Positions 5,732-63,354 of a stretch of 64,000 nucleotides of DNA are shown one piece after another. The position numbers and the translations under genes were made by a program. Position 1 is the first letter of the stretch; every line of letters begins with the position of its first letter. The notes under the pieces are model-generated. The model searched no databases, was not told where the DNA came from, and saw only the letters and a program-made list of their open reading frames with translations. Source of the DNA: Microcoleus sp. AS-A8. Lineage in GTDB: Bacteria > Cyanobacteriota > Cyanobacteriia > Cyanobacteriales > Coleofasciculaceae. The stretch lies in the NCBI GenBank assembly GCA_039962225.1, contig JAMPKV010000013.1, positions 1 through 64,000 on the forward strand, in the 5' to 3' direction.

Positions 5732-6355
5732 CTAGTCAATAATTTGTGGGCTGGGAGGTTGGGCATTGACATCTGCCTGAGACAAGTTAGGAATTGTCCA
5801 ATTGGTTTCACCCGCTTTAAACACATGAGCAGGAGCCACATTCAATTCAATTGCACCCGTCGCAGGATTTGTTCTGACAATCGACTGAGTTCCGTCTACA
5901 AACTTGACGGCAAGGGGTTCCGTCAACGCTTGTGCTTCCGCAGTGGGGCCGAGCACAACCTGAGTTCCCGCAGGTAGATAATATCCATCGCAATCCCAAT
6001 CATCATCCGTTTCCTCACCCGCCGCCAGGTAGTAGAGTTGTGTCGGAGATTTCTTTGGCTTGTTGGCATACACAGCCAGTGTCCCGGTGGTTTCGTTATG
6101 GCACTGCGCCCGCTTTCGAGCCGTTTCGATCACGTATTTCTGCTGTTGCAACTGGCTGAGCCTTTGCTGATAAGCTTCGGGCGTGTAACCCGCTTGTTCT
6201 GGATTGTCCTTAGCTTGCACTAATTGATTGATGGCTTGCGTGACTTCTGCGTAATCCGTTCCTTTCGTGAAGTCCTTACCTGCCCAAGAGGGAGGGGCAA
6301 TAATCAGGTTGACCAGAAGCACAATCGCGACGAGAGCAATTTTGAGAAATTTCAT
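5732..6355 (-). CDS. small secreted protein of unknown function (paralogue of 8492-9103)
   Basis: A 207-aa protein with a clear signal peptide: a basic start (MKFLK), a hydrophobic core and a PPSWAG cleavage region. The mature part shares several blocks with the protein at 8492-9103: an N-terminal helix with YAEVTQAINQL, an internal QCHNETTGTLAVY segment, YYLAAGEETDDDWDCDGYY (a W-D-C-x-G core), and a C-terminal IPNLSQADV. Each protein has one Cys in QC.NET and one in WDC, which could form a disulphide in the periplasm. No known domain was recognised. It is the last gene on the minus strand before a large spacer. Confidence 0.75.
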   Translation of the reverse strand: MKFLKIALVAIVLLVNLIIAPPSWAGKDFTKGTDYAEVTQAINQLVQAKDNPEQAGYTPEAYQQRLSQLQQQKYVIETARKRAQCHNETTGTLAVYANKPKKSPTQLYYLAAGEETDDDWDCDGYYLPAGTQVVLGPTAEAQALTEPLAVKFVDGTQSIVRTNPATGAIELNVAPAHVFKAGETNWTIPNLSQADVNAQPPSPQIID

Positions 6356-6484
6356 GGAATACTCCTTGTTTTGAGATTACTGGACATTCCAACTAAAAAT
6401 GTGAGGCAAAAGTTGGAAATAAGCTTCAAACTTAAGTGAGATATGAGCGAAGGAAACATCGTTAGGGAACCCCATACCGCTTGT

Positions 6485-7213
6485 CTACTTCAGAACTTTG
6501 AAAACTGGTGTTTGGGCTTGTAGCGTTTGACTAATCGTTGTTACTAGCTTCAACAGGTAAAGACCACTGATTACGAGCGTCAGTACTGCCAATCCGGGAT
6601 TTTCTAAAGTGCGGCTATCAACGAGAATTAACGTGCCCAAACTAATGAGTACAAAGGGCACCAGATAATTGCCGTAACGAGTGAGATTGTCTGCGATCGC
6701 AGGAACTTGAGTCAATCTGTAGGCGGCAAAACACCACACACCCACCAGTGAGAAAAACACAGCGAGAATGATTGCTAGATTTTGCCAATTGCAGCTTGCA
6801 AACAGCGGCATGTAGATTCCAATGTTATCACCGCCATTAGCAAAGGTTACCGCTGCCACACTATACGCTTGGGGTGAGATGAAGCTGCTAAACCAAGAAG
6901 GCTGCGCTGGTGTTTCGTCTGGTTCAGCATCATTTTCTTCAGCGGAATTCACTAAGCGGCTGAGGCCGATTGCAATGGGAACCAATCCTAACAGGCCAAT
7001 ATAGGGACGCGGCAACAACAAACTACCAAAGAAACTGGGAAGGCTGGCTGCAACTAGAGCGGCAAAGCCAAGATACTGTCCGGCAACGATGTGGCGTTTG
7101 CGAAAGATGGCATTGACCTGGGAAAAGAACAACATCAGAATCAAAATGTCATCCAGGTTGGTTGCCGTGAAGGCGGTAAAGCCCGTTGAAATTGCCGTCA
7201 GAAATCCATTCAT
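6485..7213 (-). CDS. CadD-family cadmium-resistance-type transporter
   Basis: A membrane protein of 242 aa similar to the CadD family of cadmium or cation efflux proteins. The signature is at the N-terminus, FTATNLDDILILMLFFSQV, containing the membrane Asp pair; a second conserved segment is TFANGGDNIGIYMPLFA in the middle. Six or so hydrophobic helices are visible. The loop around residues 82-105 is acidic and variable. Many cyanobacterial members have no known metal, so cadmium transport is only an inference. It lies on the same strand between a secreted protein and a DUF1003 gene. Confidence 0.78.
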   Translation of the reverse strand: MNGFLTAISTGFTAFTATNLDDILILMLFFSQVNAIFRKRHIVAGQYLGFAALVAASLPSFFGSLLLPRPYIGLLGLVPIAIGLSRLVNSAEENDAEPDETPAQPSWFSSFISPQAYSVAAVTFANGGDNIGIYMPLFASCNWQNLAIILAVFFSLVGVWCFAAYRLTQVPAIADNLTRYGNYLVPFVLISLGTLILVDSRTLENPGLAVLTLVISGLYLLKLVTTISQTLQAQTPVFKVLK

Positions 7214-7455
7214 TTCAGTTCATGCTCCAAATTCTGTTGTGCCTAAAGTCCGGACTTTTGGGCGACGCTGTAACAATCCTGTGTAGAGTGTGAGAAATGT
7301 CTTGAAGGGAATGCTTCTCACAACTTCCTCTTTGATTTACGTATAACTGAAGGATTGCTGATCAGTCACGAGACTACTAAAGGCGTTAAGAGTATTTTTA
7401 GTTGTTGACCGTTAATTCGACATCATCCAGATTCTTGCCAGATTCTTGACAAAAT

Positions 7456-8049
7456 TCACGAAGCGTGTTTCTTAGAGTGGGTATTGAGAACAGGCATCGT
7501 TGCAATCTTGTGGGAGTGATGCTCAAACTCATTCATGGAGTGAGTGGGTACCAACACAACTTTAACTTCGCTGGTGGCTTGCTGTTGCTTAATTAACACA
7601 GTTAGTTCATCTAGTTTTTTGGCATACTGAGCATCCAACTTTTCGTGCAGCAATTCGAGGTTTTGAGCCGCTTGTAAAGTCACTTGGTAATTGTGATTGG
7701 CGCTTTCCCGGTCTTCTTCAGACTGGCGATTCTGGCTCATCAAGACAACCGGAGCCGTGTAGGCAGAGGCAAACGAGAACACCAAGTTTAGCAGAATAAA
7801 GGGAGACTCATCCCAGTGAGGCACTCCGGGCATCAGATTTAAGCCAACCCATCCAGTCAGAATCGTTGATTGTCCAATCAGAAACGCCCAAGAACCCACT
7901 TTAGTTGCCATTTTGTCTGCCACTTTTTGACCAAAGGTTAAGGGCTTCTTCTCAGGGGGTTTAATTTTTCCAGCTTGTGGCTGTTTCAGAACGACAGGGG
8001 CTTGTTGCGATTCGTTGATACCGGGTTGAGTAGATGGAGCTGAGTTCAT
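7456..8049 (-). CDS. DUF1003 membrane protein
   Basis: A 197-aa protein with the DUF1003 core: a helix with VGSWAFLIGQSTILTGWVGL, a short loop with DESPFILLNLVFSFASAYTA, then VVLMSQNRQSEEDR followed by an amphipathic helix (NYQVTLQAAQNLELLHEKLD). Two transmembrane segments are predicted. The N-terminal 40 residues are rich in Gln, Pro and Lys. The function of the family is unknown. A purine-rich AAGAGG lies just upstream of the ATG. The gene is divergent from the paralogous secreted protein at 8492. Confidence 0.83.
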   Translation of the reverse strand: MNSAPSTQPGINESQQAPVVLKQPQAGKIKPPEKKPLTFGQKVADKMATKVGSWAFLIGQSTILTGWVGLNLMPGVPHWDESPFILLNLVFSFASAYTAPVVLMSQNRQSEEDRESANHNYQVTLQAAQNLELLHEKLDAQYAKKLDELTVLIKQQQATSEVKVVLVPTHSMNEFEHHSHKIATMPVLNTHSKKHAS

Positions 8050-8491
8050 GGGTTACCTCTTGGAATTTCAAATTCGTCTAATGCCTTTATCAGAGTGCGC
8101 TCCTGCATCTCTTCTATTGGTGCTGCACTCCTTATAGTTTCACAGTACGTGGCTTAACCAATAAGAGCAAATAGTTTTTATTGTCGAATTAATAACTTGA
8201 AGTGATTGATTAGGTCAAGCGTTATGCTCTGGACTTTTCAAAGCCTGCTACCCCTAACAGCATTGCTGGGATTTGCGGCTCCTTTCAATCCCAGTAAAGA
8301 ACTGTTCCCTGTTCCCCCTTTAATAAACTGAGTTTATCCATTCGACAAAAAAGAGTATTTGCTCTGATAAGCCGTGATTAATAGGATGAACTAATGTTTC
8401 TGTAATGAATTCTTGTCAAGCCGGAACGGCACTCTGGAGGAAAGACAGAAGCCCATTCAAAAACCATTTGTGGTTATCACAGGAGAAAGAT
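8050..8491. other. divergent promoter region with one hairpin
   Basis: A 442-bp spacer between divergent genes (DUF1003 on minus, secreted protein on plus). A perfect 8-bp stem, ctgggatt at 8266-8273 with aatcccag at 8287-8294, is the only clear structure. The spacer must contain promoters in both directions, but no convincing -35/-10 pair was identified. In-frame codons upstream of 8492 lack coding character. Confidence 0.45.
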
Positions 8492-47970: not shown

Positions 47971-50313
47971 TTATTGATGCCTCGCTAGATTCGCCACCAC
48001 TGTCGCCAGTTCCGTCGGTTCCACAGGTTTGGCAATGTGGATCTGAAAACCAGAGGCGAGCGCTCTGGTTCGGTCTTCAGCTCTAGCATAGGCGGTTAGG
48101 GCGATCGCTGGAATCTGTCCCCCCTGTTCTGACGAAAGTTGCCGGACTTTACGAATTAAACTGTAGCCGTCCTCTAAAGGCATCCCAATATCGCTCACCA
48201 AGACATCTGGCTTCAACTGGGATACAGCTGCCAATGCCTCGCTCGCAGAGGCAAACGCAAAGACTTTAGCCTCACACTGTTCCAGTGCAGCAACCAGAAG
48301 ATCCCGCGAATCCGGTTCATCATCAACAATTACAACCCGTACCCCCTTGAGTGCTGGCGGGTTGTCGAATGGCATTGATAGACCAATGGTGCAAGGGGAG
48401 TGTTCACCTGGGGGAGCCGCGACGACGATGGGGAGGAGTGGCAGCTTAACGGTAAAGGTCGCTCCCTTGTCTTCACCTTCACTCTGAGCACGTACTGTAC
48501 CGCCGTGCAGTTCAACTAAGTGTCGGACAATTGCCAGTCCCAATCCTAAACCACTATAGACCCTGGTGCTAGAACTATCGGCTTGGCGAAAGCGCTCAAA
48601 CACATAGGGCACAAACTCCGGGTCAATTCCTTTACCGGTATCCGTTACAGTAATCTCAACATTAGAGTCTACCCTTTCTAATCGCACCTGAACGCATCCA
48701 CCTTTGGGCGTAAACTTGATGGCATTCGATACCAAATTCCAGATGACTTGCTGCAAGCGGTCAGAGTCACCCGCCACGGGGCCTGCTGCTGGGTTAAGCA
48801 CACATTGGAGGTCAATCTCCTTGGCTTCAGTGGCGGGACGCACTGTCTCAATTGCCGCCTCTATGACTGAAACCAATTCAACCGGACGGGTATTTAAGCG
48901 CAGCTTACCCTGAATAATCCGCGAGACATCCAGCAAATCCTCCACGAGTTGCGCCTGGGACTTGGCACTGCGCTCAATCGTCTGTAGCGCCCGCGTCGTC
49001 GTCGCTTCGTCAAACTTCCGACTATTGAGTAAGCGTGTCCATCCCAGCATCGCATTCAGGGGCGATCGCAGTTCGTGGGAGAGGGTTGCCAAAAACTCAT
49101 CCTTCAAGCGGTTAGCGGCTTCGGCGGCAGCGCGTGCCTCTTGTTCACGGGCGAGTAGCTGGTTGCGTTCATCTTCGGCTCGCTTACGTTCAGTAAAGTC
49201 ACGCATGATTTTAGCAAAGCCTCGTAGCTGCCCCGCCTCATTTCTTAAGGGCGTGACGATGCTACTCGCCCAGAACCACCTACCATCTTTACGGATGTGC
49301 CAGCGTTCATCCTCAGCTCGACCTTCCGTCACTGCTGTTTCCAGTTCTTGCTTGTCTGCACCGTGTTCAAGGTCTTCAGGTGTAAAGATGATTGAACTTG
49401 GCTTTCCCAAGATTTCTGGTTCTTGATAGCCCAAAATGCTTTCTGCTCCCAGGCTCCAACGGATAACACACGCTTGGGTGTCGAGGAAGAAAATTGCATA
49501 GTCCGTCACATTCTCTAATAACAGGCGAAACCGCTCTTCACTAATCCGAAGTGCTTCCTCCGCCTGTTTACGGTGTGTAATGTCAGCCAGAGTATAAACG
49601 GCACCGATGAACGTTCCCCCCTCCTTGAAGATCGGGTCTACCGTGACAGAAAACCAGCGGCTACCGCACTGAAGCTCTTGGCTCTCACGTTGGCGAGTTT
49701 CCTGGACACGAGTGAAGGGACTTGCCTCAACAGAACCCAAGGTCGATGGCATTAGCTCTTGATGCAGGCAACTAATGAGTTCGCTAAAGGGTTTGTGTAA
49801 AAGCTCCGTCATCGCACTATTACAGCGCATAATTCTTCCTTCCTGGTTGAGAAGGCAAACCCCATCGTTCATGGCATCAAAGGTACTTTGCCACTCTTGC
49901 GCCAAGGTTAGGGCGGACTCCTCTGCCTGCCGAATGCGAAGCAAAGCTCTAACCGTGGCAATTAATTCAATCGGTTCTACAGGCTGCGCCAGGTAGCCAT
50001 CTGCACCGCTGTCTAACCCCTGTGCCTTGTCCCGACTTTCCACAAAACTGGCAGATAGATGGAGTACGGGAATAAAGGCCGTAGCTGGGTTGGCTTTGAG
50101 GCGGCGGCAGACTTCAAATCCATTGATACCAGGGAGCCTCACGTCCAGAATAATTAAGTCGGGTCTCGCTTGAGCGACTATTTGCAGCGCGGCTTCACCC
50201 GTAGCCGCTTCAATTACATCAAACCCTGCACGTCTTAACATGCGGTTGGTAGTGTAACGATTGGTTTCGTTATCGTCTACATGCAAGATTGTGATTAACT
50301 GCTGCTCAAACAT
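47971..50313 (-). CDS. hybrid sensor histidine kinase (REC-PAS-PAS-HisKA-HATPase-REC)
   Basis: About 780 aa from the ATG at 50313, with GAGAGGG just upstream; it overlaps the preceding gene by 8 bp. An N-terminal receiver (ILHVDDNETNR, LIILDVRLPGINGF, phosphoacceptor Asp57) is followed by two PAS domains (about 140-245 and 255-380, with FMNDGVCL-like and DYAIFFLDTQ cores). The kinase has FLATLSHELRSPLNAM (His413), NLVSNAIKFTPKGG, DTGKGIDP and YSGLGLGLAIVRH. A C-terminal receiver has VVIVDDEPDSR and VLVSDIGMPLEDGY. It is the last gene of the stressosome-type operon. A receiver at both ends allows phosphate to be received from the preceding hybrid. Confidence 0.9.
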   Translation of the reverse strand: MFEQQLITILHVDDNETNRYTTNRMLRRAGFDVIEAATGEAALQIVAQARPDLIILDVRLPGINGFEVCRRLKANPATAFIPVLHLSASFVESRDKAQGLDSGADGYLAQPVEPIELIATVRALLRIRQAEESALTLAQEWQSTFDAMNDGVCLLNQEGRIMRCNSAMTELLHKPFSELISCLHQELMPSTLGSVEASPFTRVQETRQRESQELQCGSRWFSVTVDPIFKEGGTFIGAVYTLADITHRKQAEEALRISEERFRLLLENVTDYAIFFLDTQACVIRWSLGAESILGYQEPEILGKPSSIIFTPEDLEHGADKQELETAVTEGRAEDERWHIRKDGRWFWASSIVTPLRNEAGQLRGFAKIMRDFTERKRAEDERNQLLAREQEARAAAEAANRLKDEFLATLSHELRSPLNAMLGWTRLLNSRKFDEATTTRALQTIERSAKSQAQLVEDLLDVSRIIQGKLRLNTRPVELVSVIEAAIETVRPATEAKEIDLQCVLNPAAGPVAGDSDRLQQVIWNLVSNAIKFTPKGGCVQVRLERVDSNVEITVTDTGKGIDPEFVPYVFERFRQADSSSTRVYSGLGLGLAIVRHLVELHGGTVRAQSEGEDKGATFTVKLPLLPIVVAAPPGEHSPCTIGLSMPFDNPPALKGVRVVIVDDEPDSRDLLVAALEQCEAKVFAFASASEALAAVSQLKPDVLVSDIGMPLEDGYSLIRKVRQLSSEQGGQIPAIALTAYARAEDRTRALASGFQIHIAKPVEPTELATVVANLARHQ

Positions 50314-52468
50314 ACCCTCTCTCGCCAACCTTCAGTGCTATCCCCGCCCTGACCAGTGCTTCCCTAACTCGCGCGATCGCTATTTCTTGGGAGGCTGCTT
50401 CTTTAGAAAGAATCGCCACCGTATTTTGTGCAAGGGTCTTTTGCTCTTCTGTTTCAAGTGACTCTGAGGTATTAATAATGACCGGGATATCGTTAGTTTT
50501 ACTGTCACTTTTGAGCAACGATAACACCTTTTCTCCGCTCATTTCTGGCAGAGAAAGATCGAGAATGATACAGTCAGGCTTTTCGGCTTGAGCCAGCTCA
50601 ATACCCTCGCGCCCATCGACGGCCTCACTAATATTAAGGTCAGTGTCACTTAAAAGTTGCTTCAACACATATTGGGATGCCGGGTCATCGTCAATGAGCA
50701 AGAGCTTTTGTGGTGTATTCCGCTTTATTAGCGTATTGATTTGGTTCAAAAGTGACCATCTATCCACAGGCTTAATTAAGAAGGCATTAGCGCCTAACGC
50801 CTTGGCTTGCTTTTCGTTATCAATCACCGTGACAACGAGAATCGGAATCTCTTGCGTGGCTGGATTCTCTTTCAATTCAGCAATAAATCCCCAGGTGTTT
50901 CGCTCCTCCAGCAAAATATCTAACATAATCGCCGTGGGAGTAAACAACGTCAGTGCCTGTTCGGCCTCGTAAAGTGTCCGTGCTAAGAAGGGCTGATAAA
51001 TGGAACCCTGGAAATACTTCTCGTAAGTGAAAAGGGTTTCAGCATTGTCCTCAACCACCAGTATGGGTAAGCGTTGGGGGTCTAGCTCCCAGGAGACGGG
51101 CGACAACGCTGACTCTTGATGAGAACCCGGATAGACAAGCGGGATGGAGGCAAAAAAGGTAGAGCCAACTCCCACAGTACTGGTCACCCAGACACTTCCG
51201 CCTAATAAGCCCGCGAGTTTACGCGACAGTGGTAGCCCCAACCCTGTACCTTTGACCTGCCGTTGCAGGGGAGAATCCACCTGAACAAATTCTTCAAAGA
51301 TGCGCTCCCTATCTTCCGGTGCAATGCCAATGCCGGTGTCGGCGACGGAGAAGGTGATCGTATTGCCAACCCGTACAGCGGATACTCGCACCTCATCGGT
51401 GGGTGTGAATTTGAGCGCATTAGAAATAAAGTTTCTCAGAATCTGGGCAACTTTTCCCTCGTCGGTGTAAAGCATTGGAATATCACGGGGTTCTTCAAAC
51501 ACCAGAGCAATGGAGGAGTTGTGAGCCAGTAGAGGGCGCAGCATTCCCCGCAGGGTTCCGAACAGTTCGCTCACGTCAAAGTTGTCCGGCTGCACGACAA
51601 TTTTTCCCGCCTCCACTTTGGCTAGGTCTAACAGGTCATTCACTAACTCTGAAAGCCCTTCAGCGGCTTTACTGATAAACTTCACCTGCTTTTCCTGCTC
51701 TGGTGTTAATTCACCATCCATCCGGTCTAACAACATCCGAGATAGAGAAATCACGGAGTTAAGCGGCGTGCGAAACTCATGGCTCATGTTTGAGAGGAAG
51801 CGAGTTTTGAGTTCGTTGGCTCGTTTTAAGGAATCGGCTTTTTCGTCCAACTCGGCATACAATGCCACAACACCCCGATTGGTATCTTCTAGTTCACGGT
51901 TGAGGTGAATTAAGGCTTCCTCTCGCTTTTGCAGTTCTGCTAAAGCACGCAGGAGTTCTTGGTTTTGCTGCTGGATTTCTTCCAACGGATTACTGGGCGA
52001 TCGCTGAACCAACTCATCCGCTATCTGTGCCAATCGATGCCCATTCACCACAGGTGCACGCTTCGGCAAGGGTTTTCCCATCTGCACCATGGTTCCGTGA
52101 CCGGGCGAAGATTCAATCTCGAACCGATCCATGAGTCGCTTGGAACCAATAATCCCTAACCCCAGTCCAGTTGCCGATGTGTACCGTCCCTCTAGAATAG
52201 AGTTCAGATTGGCAATGCCCGCTCCCTTGTCACGAATGCAGATTAGAAGGTTTTGAGGCGATTCACCTTCCACTCGAAACTCAACTCTTCCTCCCTGGGC
52301 ATATTGAAAGGCATTACGGGCGATTTCCGAAACAGCCGTAGCAATGCGCGTCTGATCCTGAGCGTCAAAACCCAATAGTTCAGCAATCTGGCGTGCTCGC
52401 TGACGGGTCATCACGACATCTTGTTCAAAGCGTATTTCTATGGTAATAATCGTTGCACTTATTGCCAT
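50306..52468 (-). CDS. RsbT-like domain/histidine kinase/double receiver hybrid
   Basis: A 720-aa signalling protein. Residues about 8-135 are an RsbT/SpoIIAB-type HATPase (AVSEIARNAFQYAQGG, DKGAGI, ATGLGLGIIGSKRLMD), as in anti-sigma serine kinases. A coiled coil (160-215) leads to HisKA FLSNMSHEFRTPLNSV (His230), then HATPase NFISNALKFTPTDE, DTGIGIAPEDR and GTGLGLPLSRKLAG. Two receivers follow: ILVVEDNAETLF with LDILLEE (Asp517), and LLLIDDDPASQY with IILDLSLPEMSG (Asp637). There is no membrane segment. It follows the fused phosphatase gene across a G-rich tract and shares 8 bp with the next kinase gene. Confidence 0.9.
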   Translation of the reverse strand: MAISATIITIEIRFEQDVVMTRQRARQIAELLGFDAQDQTRIATAVSEIARNAFQYAQGGRVEFRVEGESPQNLLICIRDKGAGIANLNSILEGRYTSATGLGLGIIGSKRLMDRFEIESSPGHGTMVQMGKPLPKRAPVVNGHRLAQIADELVQRSPSNPLEEIQQQNQELLRALAELQKREEALIHLNRELEDTNRGVVALYAELDEKADSLKRANELKTRFLSNMSHEFRTPLNSVISLSRMLLDRMDGELTPEQEKQVKFISKAAEGLSELVNDLLDLAKVEAGKIVVQPDNFDVSELFGTLRGMLRPLLAHNSSIALVFEEPRDIPMLYTDEGKVAQILRNFISNALKFTPTDEVRVSAVRVGNTITFSVADTGIGIAPEDRERIFEEFVQVDSPLQRQVKGTGLGLPLSRKLAGLLGGSVWVTSTVGVGSTFFASIPLVYPGSHQESALSPVSWELDPQRLPILVVEDNAETLFTYEKYFQGSIYQPFLARTLYEAEQALTLFTPTAIMLDILLEERNTWGFIAELKENPATQEIPILVVTVIDNEKQAKALGANAFLIKPVDRWSLLNQINTLIKRNTPQKLLLIDDDPASQYVLKQLLSDTDLNISEAVDGREGIELAQAEKPDCIILDLSLPEMSGEKVLSLLKSDSKTNDIPVIINTSESLETEEQKTLAQNTVAILSKEAASQEIAIARVREALVRAGIALKVGERGYV

Positions 52469-52496
52469 TTTAGGTTTTAGATTTTAGATTAAGAAT

Positions 52497-52573
52497 CCTC
52501 CCTATCCCCCTATCTCCCCATCCCCCCATCTCCCCATCCCCCATCCCCCACTCCCCCACTCCCCTATTCCCCC
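52497..52573. repeat. G-run tract on the coding strand between two signalling genes
   Basis: On the + strand this is a series of CCCC(C) runs separated by AT, ATCT or ACT; on the transcribed sense strand it reads as more than ten runs of three to six G with spacers of two to five bases. Two overlapping groups of four runs could fold as G-quadruplexes. It starts in the last codons of the phosphatase gene and ends about 29 bp before the start of the next gene. Confidence 0.7.
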
Positions 52574-53574
52574 TCGCGAACAACCAAAACGGCTACATCA
52601 TCACGACCTCGGTTGAAATCTCGGTACAAAACTCCCGCGATCAGGCTGGGATGTTTGGCTACTAAGCCAGGATAGCGGTCTAAGCGCCACTGGGTACCCA
52701 ATCCATCAGAGTGCATGACCAAAAGTCCGCCTTTGGGCCAGGGATAGACAAACTCATGAATCTTGCGAACTTCATGCCCAACGGTTCCGTTGTAGGAAAC
52801 CAGGTTGTTGGTTTTTTCCTGAGCCAGAATCGTACCAGAAATGTTTCCGACTCCAGCAAAACGCACGGTAAGCTGTTCAAAATTAACTTCTGCGATCGCT
52901 AAAGCCGCGCCGCGTGTACTCCGCAATGCCGCGTGTGCCGCCTCAACAATCTCTTTGGGACTTTTGCCCAAATTCGCTCGAAATATTCTCACCGCTTCAC
53001 GGGATGCCTGGGCGGCTTGTGGGCCGTGACCCAAACCATCGGCGACTAGCAGCAAGGTGCGACCGGAATTTTGGTCGGTTGCCCAAGCATCTCCCGAAAT
53101 CTCCTCACCGATTTTGGGCAAGCACACCACGCCCCTGTCTAAATCACTCTCTACCGGCTTTACGGGTGGGGAGTTTGCCCAGAGTTGAGCTAAACAGGCA
53201 CTTCCCAGCTTGGGCACCGAATAAATATCAAAAAAAGCCGAGAGACGACTCATGGCTCCCAAACCCGTTCCTGAAGTTCCTGCGGTAGAAAAGCCATCTC
53301 GTAGGCACTCGTTGATATTGCTGATTCCTGGCCCTTTGTCTAAGGCTAAGATTTCAATTCCCTCAATCTCGTTCCGGGTCAAAGGTTGTAGCACTAATTC
53401 GCCGTCTTTTGCGTGCCGAACCAGGTTATTAGCCGCTTCGGTCACCACAATCCCGACTTTTCCTCGTTCCGTCTCGTTGAATCCCAAACGACTCGCCAGA
53501 GCTAGCGCCATCCGTCGCGCTTCACCTGCCTGACTAGACTCTACCATCGGTAAGGCAACAGCTTCTATCATCAT
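52564..53574 (-). CDS. HATPase-SpoIIE phosphatase fusion
   Basis: About 336 aa from the ATG at 53574 (MMIEAVALPMV), 5 bp from the upstream stop. Residues 1-130 are an RsbT-like HATPase (VVTEAANNLVRHAKDGE, LDKGPGI, AGTSGTGLGAMSRLS). Residues 140-336 are a PP2C-type SpoIIE domain with GEEISGDAWA and LLLVADGLGHGPQAA, then LLVMHSDGLGTQW and RDDVAVLVV; the Asp residues bind metal. Alone, the C-terminal half resembles RsbX, the phosphatase that dephosphorylates RsbS and RsbR. The fusion of kinase-like and phosphatase modules on one chain is seen in some cyanobacterial and actinobacterial regulators. An in-frame TTG at 53619 is unlikely. Confidence 0.9.
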   Translation of the reverse strand: MMIEAVALPMVESSQAGEARRMALALASRLGFNETERGKVGIVVTEAANNLVRHAKDGELVLQPLTRNEIEGIEILALDKGPGISNINECLRDGFSTAGTSGTGLGAMSRLSAFFDIYSVPKLGSACLAQLWANSPPVKPVESDLDRGVVCLPKIGEEISGDAWATDQNSGRTLLLVADGLGHGPQAAQASREAVRIFRANLGKSPKEIVEAAHAALRSTRGAALAIAEVNFEQLTVRFAGVGNISGTILAQEKTNNLVSYNGTVGHEVRKIHEFVYPWPKGGLLVMHSDGLGTQWRLDRYPGLVAKHPSLIAGVLYRDFNRGRDDVAVLVVREGE

Positions 53575-53578
53575 TAAG

Positions 53579-53983
53579 TCACTTCCATTTTGTAATTGTG
53601 ACGCAGGTGCCTTGTCCAACGTGAGAAACGATCTGGAATTCGTTTACCAGCCGTTTTGTACCACTTAGCCCTAGACCCAGTCCGCTGCCAGTCGTGAATC
53701 CGTCTTTGAGCGCCAGATCAATATCTGGAATCCCTGGCCCCTTGTCTTCAAAGGTCAGTCGCAAGCCTCGACGGATTCCTTCTTGTAGGGCTTCCAGCTT
53801 GACTGTACCGCCACCGCCATAATCCAGAGTGTTGCGTGCCAACTCACTGGCTGCCGTGACAATCTTGGTCTGGTCTACCAGACTAAAACGTAGTTCCACA
53901 GCCCACTGACGCACGGATTGTCGGACTAAGACAACGTCGGCGGAGGACTGGATGCTCATCGTTTCAGACCTCACTATGTCCAT
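53579..53983 (-). CDS. rsbT: RsbT-like anti-sigma-type serine kinase
   Basis: About 134 aa from the ATG at 53983 (MDIVRSETM), with GAGAGA upstream; the ATG at 53959 is also possible. A GHKL ATPase with ADVVLVRQSVRQWAVELRF, AASELARNTLDYGGGG, FEDKGPGIPDI and GSGLGLGLSGTKRLVNEF. In the stressosome, RsbT is held by RsbR/RsbS and on stress phosphorylates both, is released, and activates a downstream partner. The chosen start overlaps the RsbS stop by 20 bp, and the stop is 5 bp from the next start, so translation is tightly coupled. Confidence 0.88.
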   Translation of the reverse strand: MDIVRSETMSIQSSADVVLVRQSVRQWAVELRFSLVDQTKIVTAASELARNTLDYGGGGTVKLEALQEGIRRGLRLTFEDKGPGIPDIDLALKDGFTTGSGLGLGLSGTKRLVNEFQIVSHVGQGTCVTITKWK

Positions 53984-54359
53984 CCGCGTTCTCTCTAGCA
54001 GAAGCTGCCAACGAGGCACGCAGGCGAGCCATTCCTTTCTCAACATTTAAGGCGGTGCGAATACCGGTCAGGGAAAGTCCCAACTCAACTAGAGTGATGG
54101 CAACCGCAGGCTGCATTCCCACCACAACGGTTTCGGCATCTAGTACCTGCGACATCTTGGCAATGTTCCCTAGTATTCGCCCAATGAAGGAATCCACGAT
54201 TTCCAAGGCTGAGATATCAATCAGCACACCACGAGCACTGATTTGGACAATCCGGTTGGTTAGGTCGTCCTGCAAGGTCATGGCTAGGCGGTCATGCATA
54301 TCGACTTGGATCGTCACTAACAGGAATTCACCCATTTGCAGGATGGGGATACGTTCCAT
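53964..54359 (-). CDS. rsbS: RsbS-like STAS stressosome scaffold
   Basis: A single STAS domain of 131 aa. The start IPILQMGEFLLVTIQVDMHD and GVLIDISALEIVDSFIGRIL, with VGMQPAVAITLVELGLSLTGI, closely resemble Bacillus RsbS. Ser57 in VDSF corresponds to Ser59 of B. subtilis RsbS, the RsbT phosphorylation site. RsbS is the conserved STAS core of the stressosome. The C-terminus after about residue 118 is extended (SAREN). It is 19 bp downstream of rsbR and overlaps rsbT. Confidence 0.9.
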   Translation of the reverse strand: MERIPILQMGEFLLVTIQVDMHDRLAMTLQDDLTNRIVQISARGVLIDISALEIVDSFIGRILGNIAKMSQVLDAETVVVGMQPAVAITLVELGLSLTGIRTALNVEKGMARLRASLAASARENADGHSEV

Positions 54360-54378
54360 ATAAATAAATCTCCTGACC

Positions 54379-55248
54379 CTATACCATACCGCGAGTGGTA
54401 CGACTAATCGACGCCCCAGTTCGCTTGAGAGCTAGCGCAAAGGCATCCGCCAGCGACGCTTTCGTCACCATATCCGCCAGATCGACGCCCAGATATACAA
54501 TGGTTTGGGCAATCTGAGGACGAATCCCACTTAGGATGCAATCAGCACCCATCAGACGAGCGGCTGTAACTGTTTTGAGTAAGTGCTGAGCCGTCAGAGT
54601 ATCGACGGTTGGCACACCTGTAATGTCGATAATGGCGACTTCCGAACCCGTCTCAACAATTTTCTGCAACAGAGACTCCATCACCACTTGGGTTCGGGCA
54701 CTATCCAGGGTGCCAATAATGGGTAGAGCTAAAATGCCGTCCCATAGTTTTACCACTGGCGTTGACAGCTCCATCAGCTCCTCTTGCTGGCGCATAATCA
54801 CTTCTTCGCGAGTTTTTTGATAGATCTCAGTCGTCCAGAGTCCCAGCTCGTCGAGCAGGTTACTGGCTAGCACAATTTCCTCAATCAGGGTGGCACCATC
54901 CTGCGCGAGTTCGGAGCGCAGACGGGTGAAGAGGGGTTGCTTAAACGAGAAAACAAAGGTTGCCGTTTCCGAGGGCGTAAAGCCTTTTTGGGAACGAGTC
55001 CGGGAAACACTCGCCAACATTTCTCGCACCCCCTTCCACTCTGGTGTGTGAGTATCACTCAAGTCACTCTGCTGTACGGCATTTTTGAACAGCTCCAGGA
55101 ACTCTCTGCACTCCTCTCGCAACTCCGTCTCTTTGTGCAAACCTTGGCGGGTACCATCGGTTATTTGCTGTTGCAGCCAATCCTCCAACAGTTGGACTTG
55201 ATAATTTTTGAGAATCTCTGGAATTTTACTTTTGCCGCTCAAGCTCAT
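54379..55248 (-). CDS. rsbR: RsbR-like stressosome sensor with RsbRD N-terminus
   Basis: A 289-aa protein. The N-terminal helical domain (PEILKNYQVQLLEDWLQQQI, KGFTPSETATFVFSFKQPLF) resembles the RsbRD sensor domain. A linker (EIYQKTREEVIMRQQEELMEL) leads to a C-terminal STAS domain with PVVKLWDGILALPIIGTLDSART and IIDITGVPTVDTLTAQHLL. Thr217 in VDT is at the position of Thr205 in B. subtilis RsbR, and Ser183 in LDS at about Thr171; both are RsbT targets. It is the first gene of the operon. The signal sensed is unknown. The RsbRD domain, not the globin fold of B. subtilis RsbRA, is used here. Confidence 0.88.
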   Translation of the reverse strand: MSLSGKSKIPEILKNYQVQLLEDWLQQQITDGTRQGLHKETELREECREFLELFKNAVQQSDLSDTHTPEWKGVREMLASVSRTRSQKGFTPSETATFVFSFKQPLFTRLRSELAQDGATLIEEIVLASNLLDELGLWTTEIYQKTREEVIMRQQEELMELSTPVVKLWDGILALPIIGTLDSARTQVVMESLLQKIVETGSEVAIIDITGVPTVDTLTAQHLLKTVTAARLMGADCILSGIRPQIAQTIVYLGVDLADMVTKASLADAFALALKRTGASISRTTRGMV

Positions 55249-60659: not shown

Positions 60660-61346
60660 ATGGTTAAAACCCCTTCCCAGCATTGGACAATTCCCCCTTT
60701 AGAAAATGGCGATCGCTTAAACCGTTACGAATTCGAGCGCCGCTACAATGTCATGCCCAACTTGAGAAAAGCCGAGTTAATCGAAGGGATTGTCTACATA
60801 CCTGCTGCTGTGCGCTTCAAGAGTCACAGTCAACCTCATGGTTGGATTGTGGCATGGCTAGGAACCTACGAAGCTATGACTCCCGGTGTTGCTTTGGGAG
60901 TCCAACCAACGGTGCGTCTCGATATCGACAACGAACCACAACCTGATGCTGTACTCCTAATCATGCCAGAAGTCGGTGGGCAGTCACGACTGAGTGAGGA
61001 TGATTATATTGAAGGTGTTCCAGAGTTGGTTGTGGAAATTGCCGCTAGCAGTGTAGCCATCGACCTTCACGCTAAAAAACAAGCCTATCGCCGTAATGGT
61101 GTCAAGGAATATATCGTCTGGCAAGTGTTCGATCAAACAATTAGCTGGTTCTATTTAGAAAAGGGTGAGTATCTTGATTTACCCACTGATACCGATGGAA
61201 TTATCAGGAGTCGAGTCTTTCCTGGGTTGTGGTTAGCGGTTTCAGAGTTATTAGCTGGGAATATGCAGCATGTCTTGGCAGTTTTACAAGAGGGAATAAA
61301 ATCTCCTGAACATGGGGCATTTGTCCAGAAATTAGCTAGCGATTAA
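60660..61346 (+). CDS. Uma2 family (DUF820) putative endonuclease
   Basis: A 228-aa Uma2 protein, with a PD-(D/E)XK-like core: AELIEGIVYIP (Glu42), NEPQPDAVLLI (Asp96), PELVVEIAASS (Glu126) and LHAKKQAYRRNGVKEYIVWQV. This is one of the most expanded families in cyanobacteria; its function is unknown, though the fold suggests nuclease activity. The N-terminal 20 residues and the upstream DNA are repeated at 59253, and a deleted copy is found at 63497. The intact copy lies directly before the restriction-modification cassette. Confidence 0.88.
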   Translation: MVKTPSQHWTIPPLENGDRLNRYEFERRYNVMPNLRKAELIEGIVYIPAAVRFKSHSQPHGWIVAWLGTYEAMTPGVALGVQPTVRLDIDNEPQPDAVLLIMPEVGGQSRLSEDDYIEGVPELVVEIAASSVAIDLHAKKQAYRRNGVKEYIVWQVFDQTISWFYLEKGEYLDLPTDTDGIIRSRVFPGLWLAVSELLAGNMQHVLAVLQEGIKSPEHGAFVQKLASD

Positions 61347-61462
61347 TCAGCCAATTGTGAGGTAATTTTGATGGGTCTTTCTTGCCAAACTTGAGTGACG
61401 CTTGAGGGTGCAGTAAGTAAAAAACTTATTTTTGGGATTTCAGGAATTTTCAATCTATCGTT

Positions 61463-61711
61463 ATGACAAACTTCAGTTCAAATGACAGCACCGAATTACT
61501 CTCTATAGCCCAAACTGCAAAGCTACTAAGTGTTACTCGTCAGCGAGTTCACGACTTAATTAAAAATGGTCAGGTTATAGCTCGTAAACTTGGACGTTAT
61601 TATTATATAGAGGCTGGTGAAGTAGAGAGATACAAAAATCAGCCTACCGGAAAACCTTATCAACCACGTCGTACAACTTCTCAAGAAAACTCTATTGACA
61701 ACTGTCAATAG
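61463..61711 (+). CDS. helix-turn-helix (excisionase-like) DNA-binding protein
   Basis: An 82-aa protein with a MerR/excisionase-type HTH: LLSIAQTAKLLSVTRQRVHDLIKNGQVIARKLGRYYYI, residues about 11-50, followed by a polar tail. It lies 45 bp before the methyltransferase gene on the same strand. Given that place it could regulate the restriction-modification genes, although it is not of the classical C-protein family. A strong inverted repeat (61691-61712) overlaps its stop codon. Confidence 0.78.
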   Translation: MTNFSSNDSTELLSIAQTAKLLSVTRQRVHDLIKNGQVIARKLGRYYYIEAGEVERYKNQPTGKPYQPRRTTSQENSIDNCQ

Positions 61712-61723
61712 AATTCGTAGACT
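61691..61723 (+). promoter_or_regulatory. operator/promoter candidate upstream of the methyltransferase
   Basis: TCTATTGACA and TGTCAATAGA are exact inverted arms separated by AC (61691-61712). The left arm contains a perfect TTGACA (61695-61700), and a TAGACT (61718-61723) follows with 17-bp spacing, a plausible -35/-10 pair. A protein bound to the repeat would cover the -35 element. Confidence 0.5.
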
Positions 61724-61755
61724 CAAGCTATACTAAGGTAATCAAGGTTCAATGA

Positions 61756-62742
61756 ATGCTCCCTTTTCAACTGATTGCAACTAATGTTGCCACTCAACAA
61801 GGGCTAAAACAGGTTTATACAAGTGAGTATGGCGTTTTATATCAGGGAGACTGCCTTAAACTGCTGTTAGCACTACCTGATGAGTCTGTGGATCTCGTAT
61901 TTGCTGACCCACCCTTTAATCTTGGCAAAGAATATGGTGAAGGTGTCAGCGATCAGATGGAGACAGATAGATACTTAATCTGGTCACAACAATGGTTGAG
62001 TGAGAGTATTCGGGTACTAAAAGAAGGTGGCAGTCTATTTGTATTCAACTTGCCTAAGTGGTGTATAGAGTACGGTGCATACCTCAATCAGCAAGGAATG
62101 TTGTTTAGGCATTGGATTGCTTGCAGAATGCCGAAAGCTTTTCCTAGAGGTAAAAAGATGTCTCCTGCTCATTACGGACTACTCTATTACACCAAGGGGC
62201 AACCAGCAGTTTTCAACAAAGTTTACACACCTATTCAAGTTTGTCGGCATTGCGGCGGAGAAATTCGTGACTATGGTGGTCATCGAAAAAAACTCAATGA
62301 GAAAGGGATTAATTTGATGGATGTTTGGGATGCGCCAGAAGATGTTTGGGAGGATGCTCATGAAGCTGATCCTACTGAAGTTTTATGGGCGTTGGCAGAA
62401 GAAATGTGGGCTGATATTCCACCAGTTCGGCATCGTCGGCACAAAAAACGAGTTCCAAACGAACTCGCTCCCATTATGCTAGAGCGAATTATTGCAATGG
62501 CATCTAATTCAGGGCAAATTGTAGTTGATCCGTTTGGGGGTTCAGGTACTACATTTTATGCAGCAGAAAAACTACATCGTTATTGGATTGGTTCAGAAAT
62601 TGGAGACATAGATCCAGCCGTAGAACGACTGACTGATCTAGCTAACGGAATTATGGAGCAATGGGAATCGGCAAGGGGAAGTAAGAAATTGAAGCCATGC
62701 AAAGCAACGGCATCACAACTGCAAATTCCTTTCTCTACATAG
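61756..62742 (+). CDS. Type II DNA methyltransferase, beta class
   Basis: A 328-aa site-specific methyltransferase. The catalytic motif IV is FADPPFNLGKEYG (residues 51-54, DPPF) and precedes the AdoMet-binding motif VVDPFGGSGTTFYA (about 258-266), the order of beta-class enzymes. DPPF suggests N6-adenine as the product. A middle segment with VCRHCGGEIRDYGGHRKKL (Cys pair and His) may be part of the target-recognition region. The stop is 18 bp from the convergent endonuclease gene. Recognition sequence not predictable from this window. Confidence 0.88.
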   Translation: MLPFQLIATNVATQQGLKQVYTSEYGVLYQGDCLKLLLALPDESVDLVFADPPFNLGKEYGEGVSDQMETDRYLIWSQQWLSESIRVLKEGGSLFVFNLPKWCIEYGAYLNQQGMLFRHWIACRMPKAFPRGKKMSPAHYGLLYYTKGQPAVFNKVYTPIQVCRHCGGEIRDYGGHRKKLNEKGINLMDVWDAPEDVWEDAHEADPTEVLWALAEEMWADIPPVRHRRHKKRVPNELAPIMLERIIAMASNSGQIVVDPFGGSGTTFYAAEKLHRYWIGSEIGDIDPAVERLTDLANGIMEQWESARGSKKLKPCKATASQLQIPFST

Positions 62743-62760
62743 CTTTTCTTTTAGACAAAC

Positions 62761-63354
62761 TCAGACCAATGCACGACCGTCTGTTCCCTTGGTAATCGTT
62801 GGTACATTGTTGTCTACCCGATCGTGTTCAATCACAAAGATTGCCAGGAAACCTGCTTCAATCCGAACTGCCCGCCAAACATCAAAGTATGGCTCTAGTT
62901 CTTCATAGTTACCGATTCGATCCGTTAGGTAAGGATAAATTTTTCTACTGGGGAGTACTAACGCAGCACCCAGAAAAACACCCCGTAGTAATCCAAGCAT
63001 TATTTTATTAACAGATCGATGGCTTGAGGAAATATTCCCAGTTTCCCACTCAAGAGCGAAAAGATGATTATCAATAACCTTTGTTGCATCTACTTTTCCT
63101 GGCGATTTGGTTGCATAGTTAATTGAAGTTTCAAGTCCCCACGCAAATCGATCCTTCAACGCAGTCATGCAAGCTGCTTTAATGGGTTTAACACCATTTC
63201 CATGCTTTTTGGGATTGATTGTAAAGTCGGATGTCCCAGGAGGATGCACAATCAAAGAGATAGCATCACGAATTTCAGCACGAATGATAGACCAATCGCT
63301 TGATTCTTCAAAACTGCCAACACTGATTAAAGAAACCTCTTGAACAATCTTCAT
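62761..63354 (-). CDS. Type II restriction endonuclease, BamHI/BglII-like
   Basis: A 197-aa protein convergent with the methyltransferase. The core GKVDATKVIDNHLFALEWETGN gives Asp89 and Glu102-x-Glu104, the ExE variant of PD-(D/E)XK used by BamHI-type enzymes, and SSHRSVNKI follows as in that group. INPKKHGNGVKPIK and the C-terminal RAVRIEAGFLAIFVIEHDRVDNN are additional conserved-looking stretches. Pairing with the methyltransferase makes the endonuclease assignment likely. If the BglII/BstYI branch is correct, the site would contain GATC; this is an inference. Confidence 0.78.
   Translation of the reverse strand: MKIVQEVSLISVGSFEESSDWSIIRAEIRDAISLIVHPPGTSDFTINPKKHGNGVKPIKAACMTALKDRFAWGLETSINYATKSPGKVDATKVIDNHLFALEWETGNISSSHRSVNKIMLGLLRGVFLGAALVLPSRKIYPYLTDRIGNYEELEPYFDVWRAVRIEAGFLAIFVIEHDRVDNNVPTITKGTDGRALV

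Follow-up and report, generated by a model that had tools for sequence, protein, structure and literature searches.

Modules of the stressosome genes for RsbR, RsbS, RsbT and RsbX (RSTX) followed by two-component, cyclic di-GMP (c-di-GMP) and HisKA/REC genes are described in the accessible text of Heinz 2022 (PMC9237108) and Cutugno 2023 (PMC10014275); the former gives eleven downstream architectures, some with the domain RsbU_N, and counts HisKA/REC proteins among them. The parts available of a 2025 eLife paper (PMC12143880) propose that RsbU_N serves as an exchangeable input of phosphatases, kinases and cyclases. Signal transfer by stressosomes that lack RsbU or a sigma factor appears in this literature, as far as it was accessible, as an open question, for which Heinz 2022 proposed a transient contact of RsbT. 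Here we present an analysis of a six-gene operon on the minus strand, at positions 47971-55248, of a 64,000-nucleotide stretch of Microcoleus sp. AS-A8 (GCA_039962225.1, contig JAMPKV010000013.1, positions 1 to 64,000; hereafter the window), in which a stressosome core stands beside a hybrid histidine kinase (T-HK) with an RsbT-like domain (T domain) at its N-terminus. The genome assembly comprises 7.75 Mb in 54 contigs.

The operon encodes RsbR, RsbS, RsbT, a HATPase-PP2C phosphatase (X), T-HK and a second hybrid kinase (Table 1). Open reading frame (ORF) coordinates, translations and Pfam agree with the original prediction, made from the letters alone, of six near-abutting or overlapping genes with these domains, save for the 95 bp that separate X from T-HK; the RsbT-like domain that it had spotted on the hybrid kinase corresponds to a Pfam HATPase_c_2 match at the N-terminus. 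Gene order and Pfam also bear out a stressosome core beside His-Asp genes with no sigma branch in the operon: by Pfam the six proteins include no sigma factor and, RsbS and RsbT themselves apart, nothing of the RsbV/RsbW type, the operon has no DNA-binding regulator, and the SigB-type set of RsbU with RsbU_N, RsbV, RsbW and sigma factor is absent from it. The accompanying statement that the known stressosome output is RsbU and an anti-sigma cascade was too narrow, since RSTX modules with two-component genes are in print (PMC9237108, PMC10014275, as far as accessible). We hold with moderate confidence that the histidine kinase is a client of the stressosome, coupled to it via its RsbT-like domain, either by docking on the STAS domains, which we favor, or through RsbT. 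The T domain is the most probable coupling element because of its position at the input end, its alternation with RsbU_N and its swapping between output enzymes.

The comparison of gene order that had been proposed for cyanobacteria was carried out there and beyond. A scan of an 84,980-species collection with a T-domain alignment gave 210 relatives, of which the best 80 were used, which biases the locus set toward close relatives; adding the window and 12 further loci brings it to 93 T-HK loci (the kinases of L042 and L081 are identical). RsbR, RsbS, RsbT, X and T-HK are all present in 83 of the 93, and all 83 of these complete loci have them in the same order on one strand; the conserved order rules out chance adjacency. 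Eight of the ten incomplete loci lie at a contig edge. The other two, from Rhizonema (L086, L097), have upstream sequence without RSTX, keep T-HK and the partner kinase, and have neighbors resembling those of L067 and L068, which retain RSTX; an RsbT search of both Rhizonema genomes finds T-HK only. X is split into two ORFs in L068. Among 386 genomes of the window's phylum, RsbT was matched (E <= 1e-15) in 16, 13 of which also have T-HK and three of which (G038, G041, G044) do not, while T-HK without RsbT was found in none of the 386 (best candidates per genome scored). In six genomes of other phyla a T-HK profile (E <= 1e-10) matched only the T-HK, the RsbT, and the X of the same stretch in five of the six. 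The record titles of the T-HK loci name Cyanobacteriota, Nitrospira, Rokubacteria, Acidobacteriota, Planctomycetota and Pseudomonadota, plus single bins titled Chloroflexi and Anaeromyxobacter; many records are metagenome bins, some perhaps mis-binned (L090, titled Nitrosospira, is placed next to Nitrospira in the tree). Nostoc punctiforme NIES-2108 (L084) is among the cyanobacteria that carry the operon. Among the matches listed, the T-HK most similar in sequence belongs to a Symplocastrum bin.

It is very improbable that the arrangement reflects neighborhood only, with the stressosome acting through an unlinked partner-switching pathway and the kinases forming a separate system. The host genome does hold other STAS and HATPase_c_2 proteins (7 STAS and 14 HATPase_c_2 matches, the operon's own included), whereas the gene order is kept in records of several phyla, no RsbU_N lies above the Pfam cut-off in the genome (best 21.2 bits versus a cut-off of 25.5), and the T domain alternates with RsbU_N as described below.

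The core has the features of a stressosome module, with adjacent genes for RsbR, RsbS and RsbT. Against the sequences of solved structures, RsbS is nearest to RsbS entries (best 6qcm, E 4.1e-32) and the STAS region of RsbR to stressosome RsbR-type entries (best 7o0i, E 2.5e-33). The phosphorylation residues that had been predicted, Ser57 of RsbS and Thr217 of RsbR, are each kept in 83/83 complete loci. A second RsbR site, Ser183, 34 residues upstream of Thr217, is Ser in 82/83 with one gap; we take it to be the position of T171 in Bacillus subtilis. X has the five metal-site Asp residues in 83/83 complete loci, as in RsbX-type PP2C, plus an extra HATPase domain. Three residues never vary in the T (83), T-HK (83) and X (82) domains: Glu and Asn of the N-box and an Arg. 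This Arg (T R42, HK R22, X R35) aligns with R20 of SpoIIAB and presumably corresponds to R19 of B. subtilis RsbT, an RsbU contact. Contact of B. subtilis RsbT R19 with RsbU is reported in the accessible text of PMC12143880.

In a tree of 94 HATPase domains, 30 T-HK domains formed one clade (100/100) and 31 X domains another (100/99), and RsbT and T-HK domains stood together against X (100/99), with RsbT not resolved as a single clade; the tree has few columns and its bootstrap is unsettled. An RsbT query of the host genome (E <= 1e-3) returned the T, T-HK and X of the operon plus one weak match elsewhere (E 7.5e-4). When the T, T-HK and X profiles were run with filters off, none of the four best HATPase_c_2 proteins from elsewhere in the genome exceeded 13.0 bits, as against 67-219 for the operon's own proteins, and an RsbW-like origin of the T domain was rejected on these scores. 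Natural STAS-HATPase fusions were absent among the matches listed. At L046 a separate HATPase gene (5961-6368, minus strand), which groups with the fused X HATPases, adjoins the PP2C gene in an operon of the RsbU_N class; it possibly represents the state before fusion.

T-HK has the acceptor His, ATP-binding domain and receiver Asp of a hybrid histidine kinase (Pfam: HATPase_c_2, HisKA, HATPase_c and two Response_reg). Among the complete loci His230 is invariant (83/83), Asp517 is present in 68/83 (13 gaps, 2 Glu) and Asp637 in 74/83 (9 gaps). In 78 of the 83 kinases Lys132 and His230 are 98 residues apart, a regularity to be expected of signaling through helix phase, and the linker was modeled as a single helix, 161-247, containing His230 (AlphaFold, 448 residues, low pTM of 0.45). 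The T domain alone gave a confident predicted fold (AlphaFold, pLDDT 92, pTM 0.87), for which a ranking of Protein Data Bank folds lists SpoIIAB, then RsbW entries, then histidine-kinase domains. SpoIIAB and RsbW are kinases solved together with their STAS partners; kinship with RsbT and the fold in common with these two suggest that the T domain may dock on STAS. RsbT is absent from the model of the Listeria stressosome map, which provides no RsbT-RsbS contact surface (PMC6614362, accessible text).

The T domain might instead be an active Ser/Thr kinase, with T-HK phosphorylating RsbS or RsbR and feeding back on the stressosome. Glu48 and Asn52 of T-HK are invariant, its five ATP-site glycines are 96-100% conserved (n=83), and the fold is nearest to SpoIIAB and RsbW, all of which agree with such an activity; its location at the input end, ahead of a linker of near-fixed length, does not, nor do the kinases of two homologous loci (L157, L169), whose T domain retains the Arg without the N-box Asn or a recognizable glycine box. 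On balance we consider the feedback reading distinctly improbable.

A hidden RsbU_N in the T-HK of the window was ruled out by Pfam and a local RsbU_N profile; the latter matched 0/93 T-HKs. Effectors in the place of T-HK were compared in a sample of 247 Acidobacteriota genomes, 27 of them with RsbT, and the rsbR-rsbS-rsbT (RST) region was examined in all 27, L114 included. Eleven of these have a T-like effector (G390, G398, G453, G499, which is cut, G525, G559, G597, G612, G620, G626, G636), twelve an RsbU_N effector (G414, G461, G487, G490, G514, G532, G548, G564, G583, G596, G603, G610) and four neither type (G520, G523, G572, G637; the last three cut by a contig end). At L168 and L174 just RsbT is visible beside the RsbU_N effector. 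Three more loci of the RsbU_N class (L045-L047) come from G041 and G044, which belong to the window's phylum but to other classes of it. RsbU_N lies above the Pfam cut-off in 13 of the resulting 15 effectors (L165 scores 23.7 versus 25.5; L045 has no match), 11 of the 15 having been picked or also matched by the local profile, which was built from the other four. The two modules were never combined at the input end of one of the effectors examined; weak T-HK-profile matches in four RsbU_N effectors are located in the catalytic ATPase domain. PP2C with a fused HATPase occurs in 10/10 loci with a T-like effector (7 X-type and 3 RsbT-PP2C fusions, one of the latter, L164, with a cut effector) and in 0/13 RsbU_N loci with a visible PP2C (Fisher p 8.7e-7, the rows being related). 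RsbR type was rejected as tracking the two classes, since L157, L164 and L169 have no RsbRD_N match and L046 and L047 do.

The T-HK slot of the RST operon can hold other enzymes: L179 (6366-7496, minus strand) has an RsbT-like domain, helical linker and GGDEF there, and L184 a T-like domain on a HisKA_2 kinase. In three further phyla T-like profile matches occur in 33/251, 41/398 and 12/246 genomes, more than half of them in frames below 300 aa; 18 regions from 17 of the 86 matching genomes were examined, picked mostly for long frames. We propose tentatively, and with less assurance than the client role of the kinase, that RsbT-type domains act as portable modules of stressosome clients: RsbT, X and an effector (here a histidine kinase, in a relative a diguanylate cyclase) would all be recruited by one RsbR/RsbS core. 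The stressosome would then control histidine phosphorylation directly, holding and releasing the histidine kinase itself, and would need neither a free messenger nor a sigma factor. As separate observations, an RsbT-type domain is fused directly to PP2C in L157 (8148-9323, minus strand), L169 (671-1783, minus strand) and L187 (3829-4872, plus strand), and likewise in L164, L188, L192 and L193; no separate RsbT was seen alongside these fusions, which perhaps unite in a single chain the kinase and the phosphatase acting on one substrate. L186 has a T-domain protein beside a lone RsbR-like gene.

Alternatively, RsbT could be the messenger, freed from the core to bind or phosphorylate the kinase via the T domain or the linker, as with RsbU_N effectors. 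Each of the 83 complete loci has RsbT, in which R42 and R46, which we take to be the positions of two RsbU contacts, are kept in 83/83; moreover, L153 retains RsbT and the linker although its kinase has no T domain. Control of RsbU by RsbT is established and RsbU_N kinases are known (PMC12143880, accessible text), and Heinz 2022 proposes, in the part available, that RsbT phosphorylates a downstream kinase (PMC9237108). The T-HKs have no RsbU_N, however, and an acceptor of RsbT need not resemble RsbT. We regard a messenger role of RsbT as unlikely, more plausible than kinase activity of the T domain.

Several observations weigh against the T domain as a stressosome dock. Few of the 83 complete loci depart from an intact ATP site in this domain, which may therefore act as a kinase instead of serving as a dock, and the invariant Arg may be retained for fold or nucleotide binding. 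The two Rhizonema loci without RSTX keep a constrained T domain, with a ratio of non-synonymous to synonymous substitution rates of 0.16 versus 0.20 for the kinase core (small differences over few sites); the absence of RSTX reflects either a recent loss or an RST-independent role of T-HK. L153 encodes a T-HK-family kinase without a T domain beside RsbT and a HATPase-PP2C X, hence a T-domain effector and HATPase-PP2C are not inseparable, and T-domain proteins occur without RST nearby in L189 (HisKA) and L190 (Hpt). The T-less kinase and these orphans speak against a strict rule. In Vibrio, RsbT and VvD1 gave no positive interaction according to the accessible text of PMC9237108; VvD1 may or may not carry a T domain. 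The orphan of L190 (5506-6792, plus strand) is an RsbT-like domain joined to an Hpt domain.

The order of genes and domains, the alternation with RsbU_N, the conserved sites and the spacing are observed. Under our preferred reading of the kinase as a stressosome client, we infer the docking, the direction of signaling and the final target as follows. By orthology, RsbR and RsbS would form the STAS core, RsbT would phosphorylate RsbS Ser57 and RsbR, and X would reverse this. The T domain would dock on the STAS surface of RsbS/RsbR as RsbT does, or couple via RsbT, and altered phosphorylation of the core would change its contact. This change would pass down the helix of near-fixed length into the kinase dimer and alter the phosphorylation of His230, then of the T-HK receivers, then of the N-terminal receiver of the next protein. 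The predicted flow from Ser/Thr phosphorylation into a His-Asp relay is one option; that the kinase carries an RsbT-like domain hints at coupling by way of this domain.

The multi-step phosphorelay of the original prediction was not supported. Pfam finds no Hpt domain in the six operon proteins, and the 23 Hpt matches of the genome all lie outside the window (nearest C13:75775); with this step missing, a complete His-Asp-His-Asp phosphorelay within the operon is ruled out. An Hpt protein acting in trans is possible. The missing Hpt points to a simpler path from T-HK to the first receiver of the last protein (Pfam: two Response_reg, two PAS, HisKA and HATPase_c), which adjacency of the genes would suggest. 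Of the 91 loci that extend beyond T-HK, 79 have an ORF beginning with REC directly after it on the same strand. The remaining 12 comprise L121, L129, L044, L095, L069, L108 and L111 together with five genomes from a single cyanobacterial genus (g11); T-HK has no receivers in L121 and L129, L111 has just a 74-aa REC ORF, and in L044 a REC-kinase-REC partner (5854-8430, plus strand) is convergent on the opposite strand, overlapping the T-HK end by 4 bases. In genus g11 the gene after T-HK encodes an MBOAT acyltransferase (Pfam, one tested), taken as unrelated.

Table 1. Genes of the operon in the window, with the basis of each assignment
Feature	Coordinates	Strand	Basis
RsbR: RsbRD_N sensor and STAS, phosphosite positions Ser183/Thr217	54379..55248	-	translation, Pfam, alignment
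RsbS: STAS, phosphosite Ser57	53964..54359	-	translation, Pfam, alignment
RsbT switch kinase: Pfam HATPase	53579..53983	-	longest ORF to 54046; start 53983 from sequence and homologues
X: HATPase_c_2 (RsbT-related) and SpoIIE/PP2C phosphatase	52564..53619	-	Pfam, alignment
T-HK: RsbT-like domain ~1-133, helical linker, HisKA (His230), HATPase, two receivers (Asp517, Asp637)	50306..52468	-	
REC-PAS-PAS-HisKA-HATPase-REC hybrid kinase, probable next receiver	47971..50328	-	Pfam, locus comparison

The RsbT start in Table 1 is the likely one, giving 134 aa. X probably starts at the ATG at 53574 or 53571, and the last gene probably at the ATG at 50313, for an 8-bp overlap with T-HK. The gap between X and T-HK (52469-52563), the sole sizeable one of the operon, contains a G-rich short repeat. 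Elsewhere in the window, a likely restriction-modification cluster (60660-63354) comprises a Uma2-family gene (60660-61346), an N6/N4 DNA methylase (61756-62742) and a BamHI-family endonuclease (62761-63354).

Stressosome-to-two-component coupling is thus already known; wiring via an RsbT-like domain was not found in print, and no earlier description of a histidine kinase with an RsbT-like input domain was found in the literature as far as covered, a coverage outside which the likeliest sources, Pane-Farre 2005 and 2017, fall. The gene order points to an effector-fused RsbT-like module that alternates with RsbU_N. Such a module predicts His-Asp or c-di-GMP outputs in many uncharacterized bacteria and opens the coupling step to direct tests on purified proteins.

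Among known systems, the RSTX module of Vibrio vulnificus with VvD1/VvD2 shares rsbRSTX followed by two-component genes and the lack of rsbU, rsbV, rsbW and sigB (PMC9237108, PMC10014275), and deletions of RSTX and D1 have similar phenotypes (PMC10014275). It differs in its globin-coupled RsbR and single-domain X, as against an RsbRD_N RsbR and a HATPase-PP2C X here, and an RsbT-like domain on the kinase goes unmentioned in the accessible text of both reports. The RsbU_N effectors (RsbU, Moorella RsbU_N-GAF-GGDEF, RsbU_N histidine kinases) resemble T-HK in their N-terminal module, helical linker, output enzyme and RST-linked genes; RsbU_N, however, is an acceptor of RsbT, whereas a homologue of RsbT takes its place here (PMC12143880, parts available). 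The RsbRST-UVW-SigB system of Bacillus and Listeria has orthologues of RsbR, RsbS and RsbT with their phosphosites, and by orthology RsbR and RsbS may here too assemble into a megadalton particle, whereas the operon of Microcoleus sp. AS-A8 lacks RsbU, RsbV, RsbW and SigB. RsbK-RsbY of Bacillus cereus, as far as its description was accessible, likewise employs a hybrid histidine kinase in stress control, with SigB as the output there.

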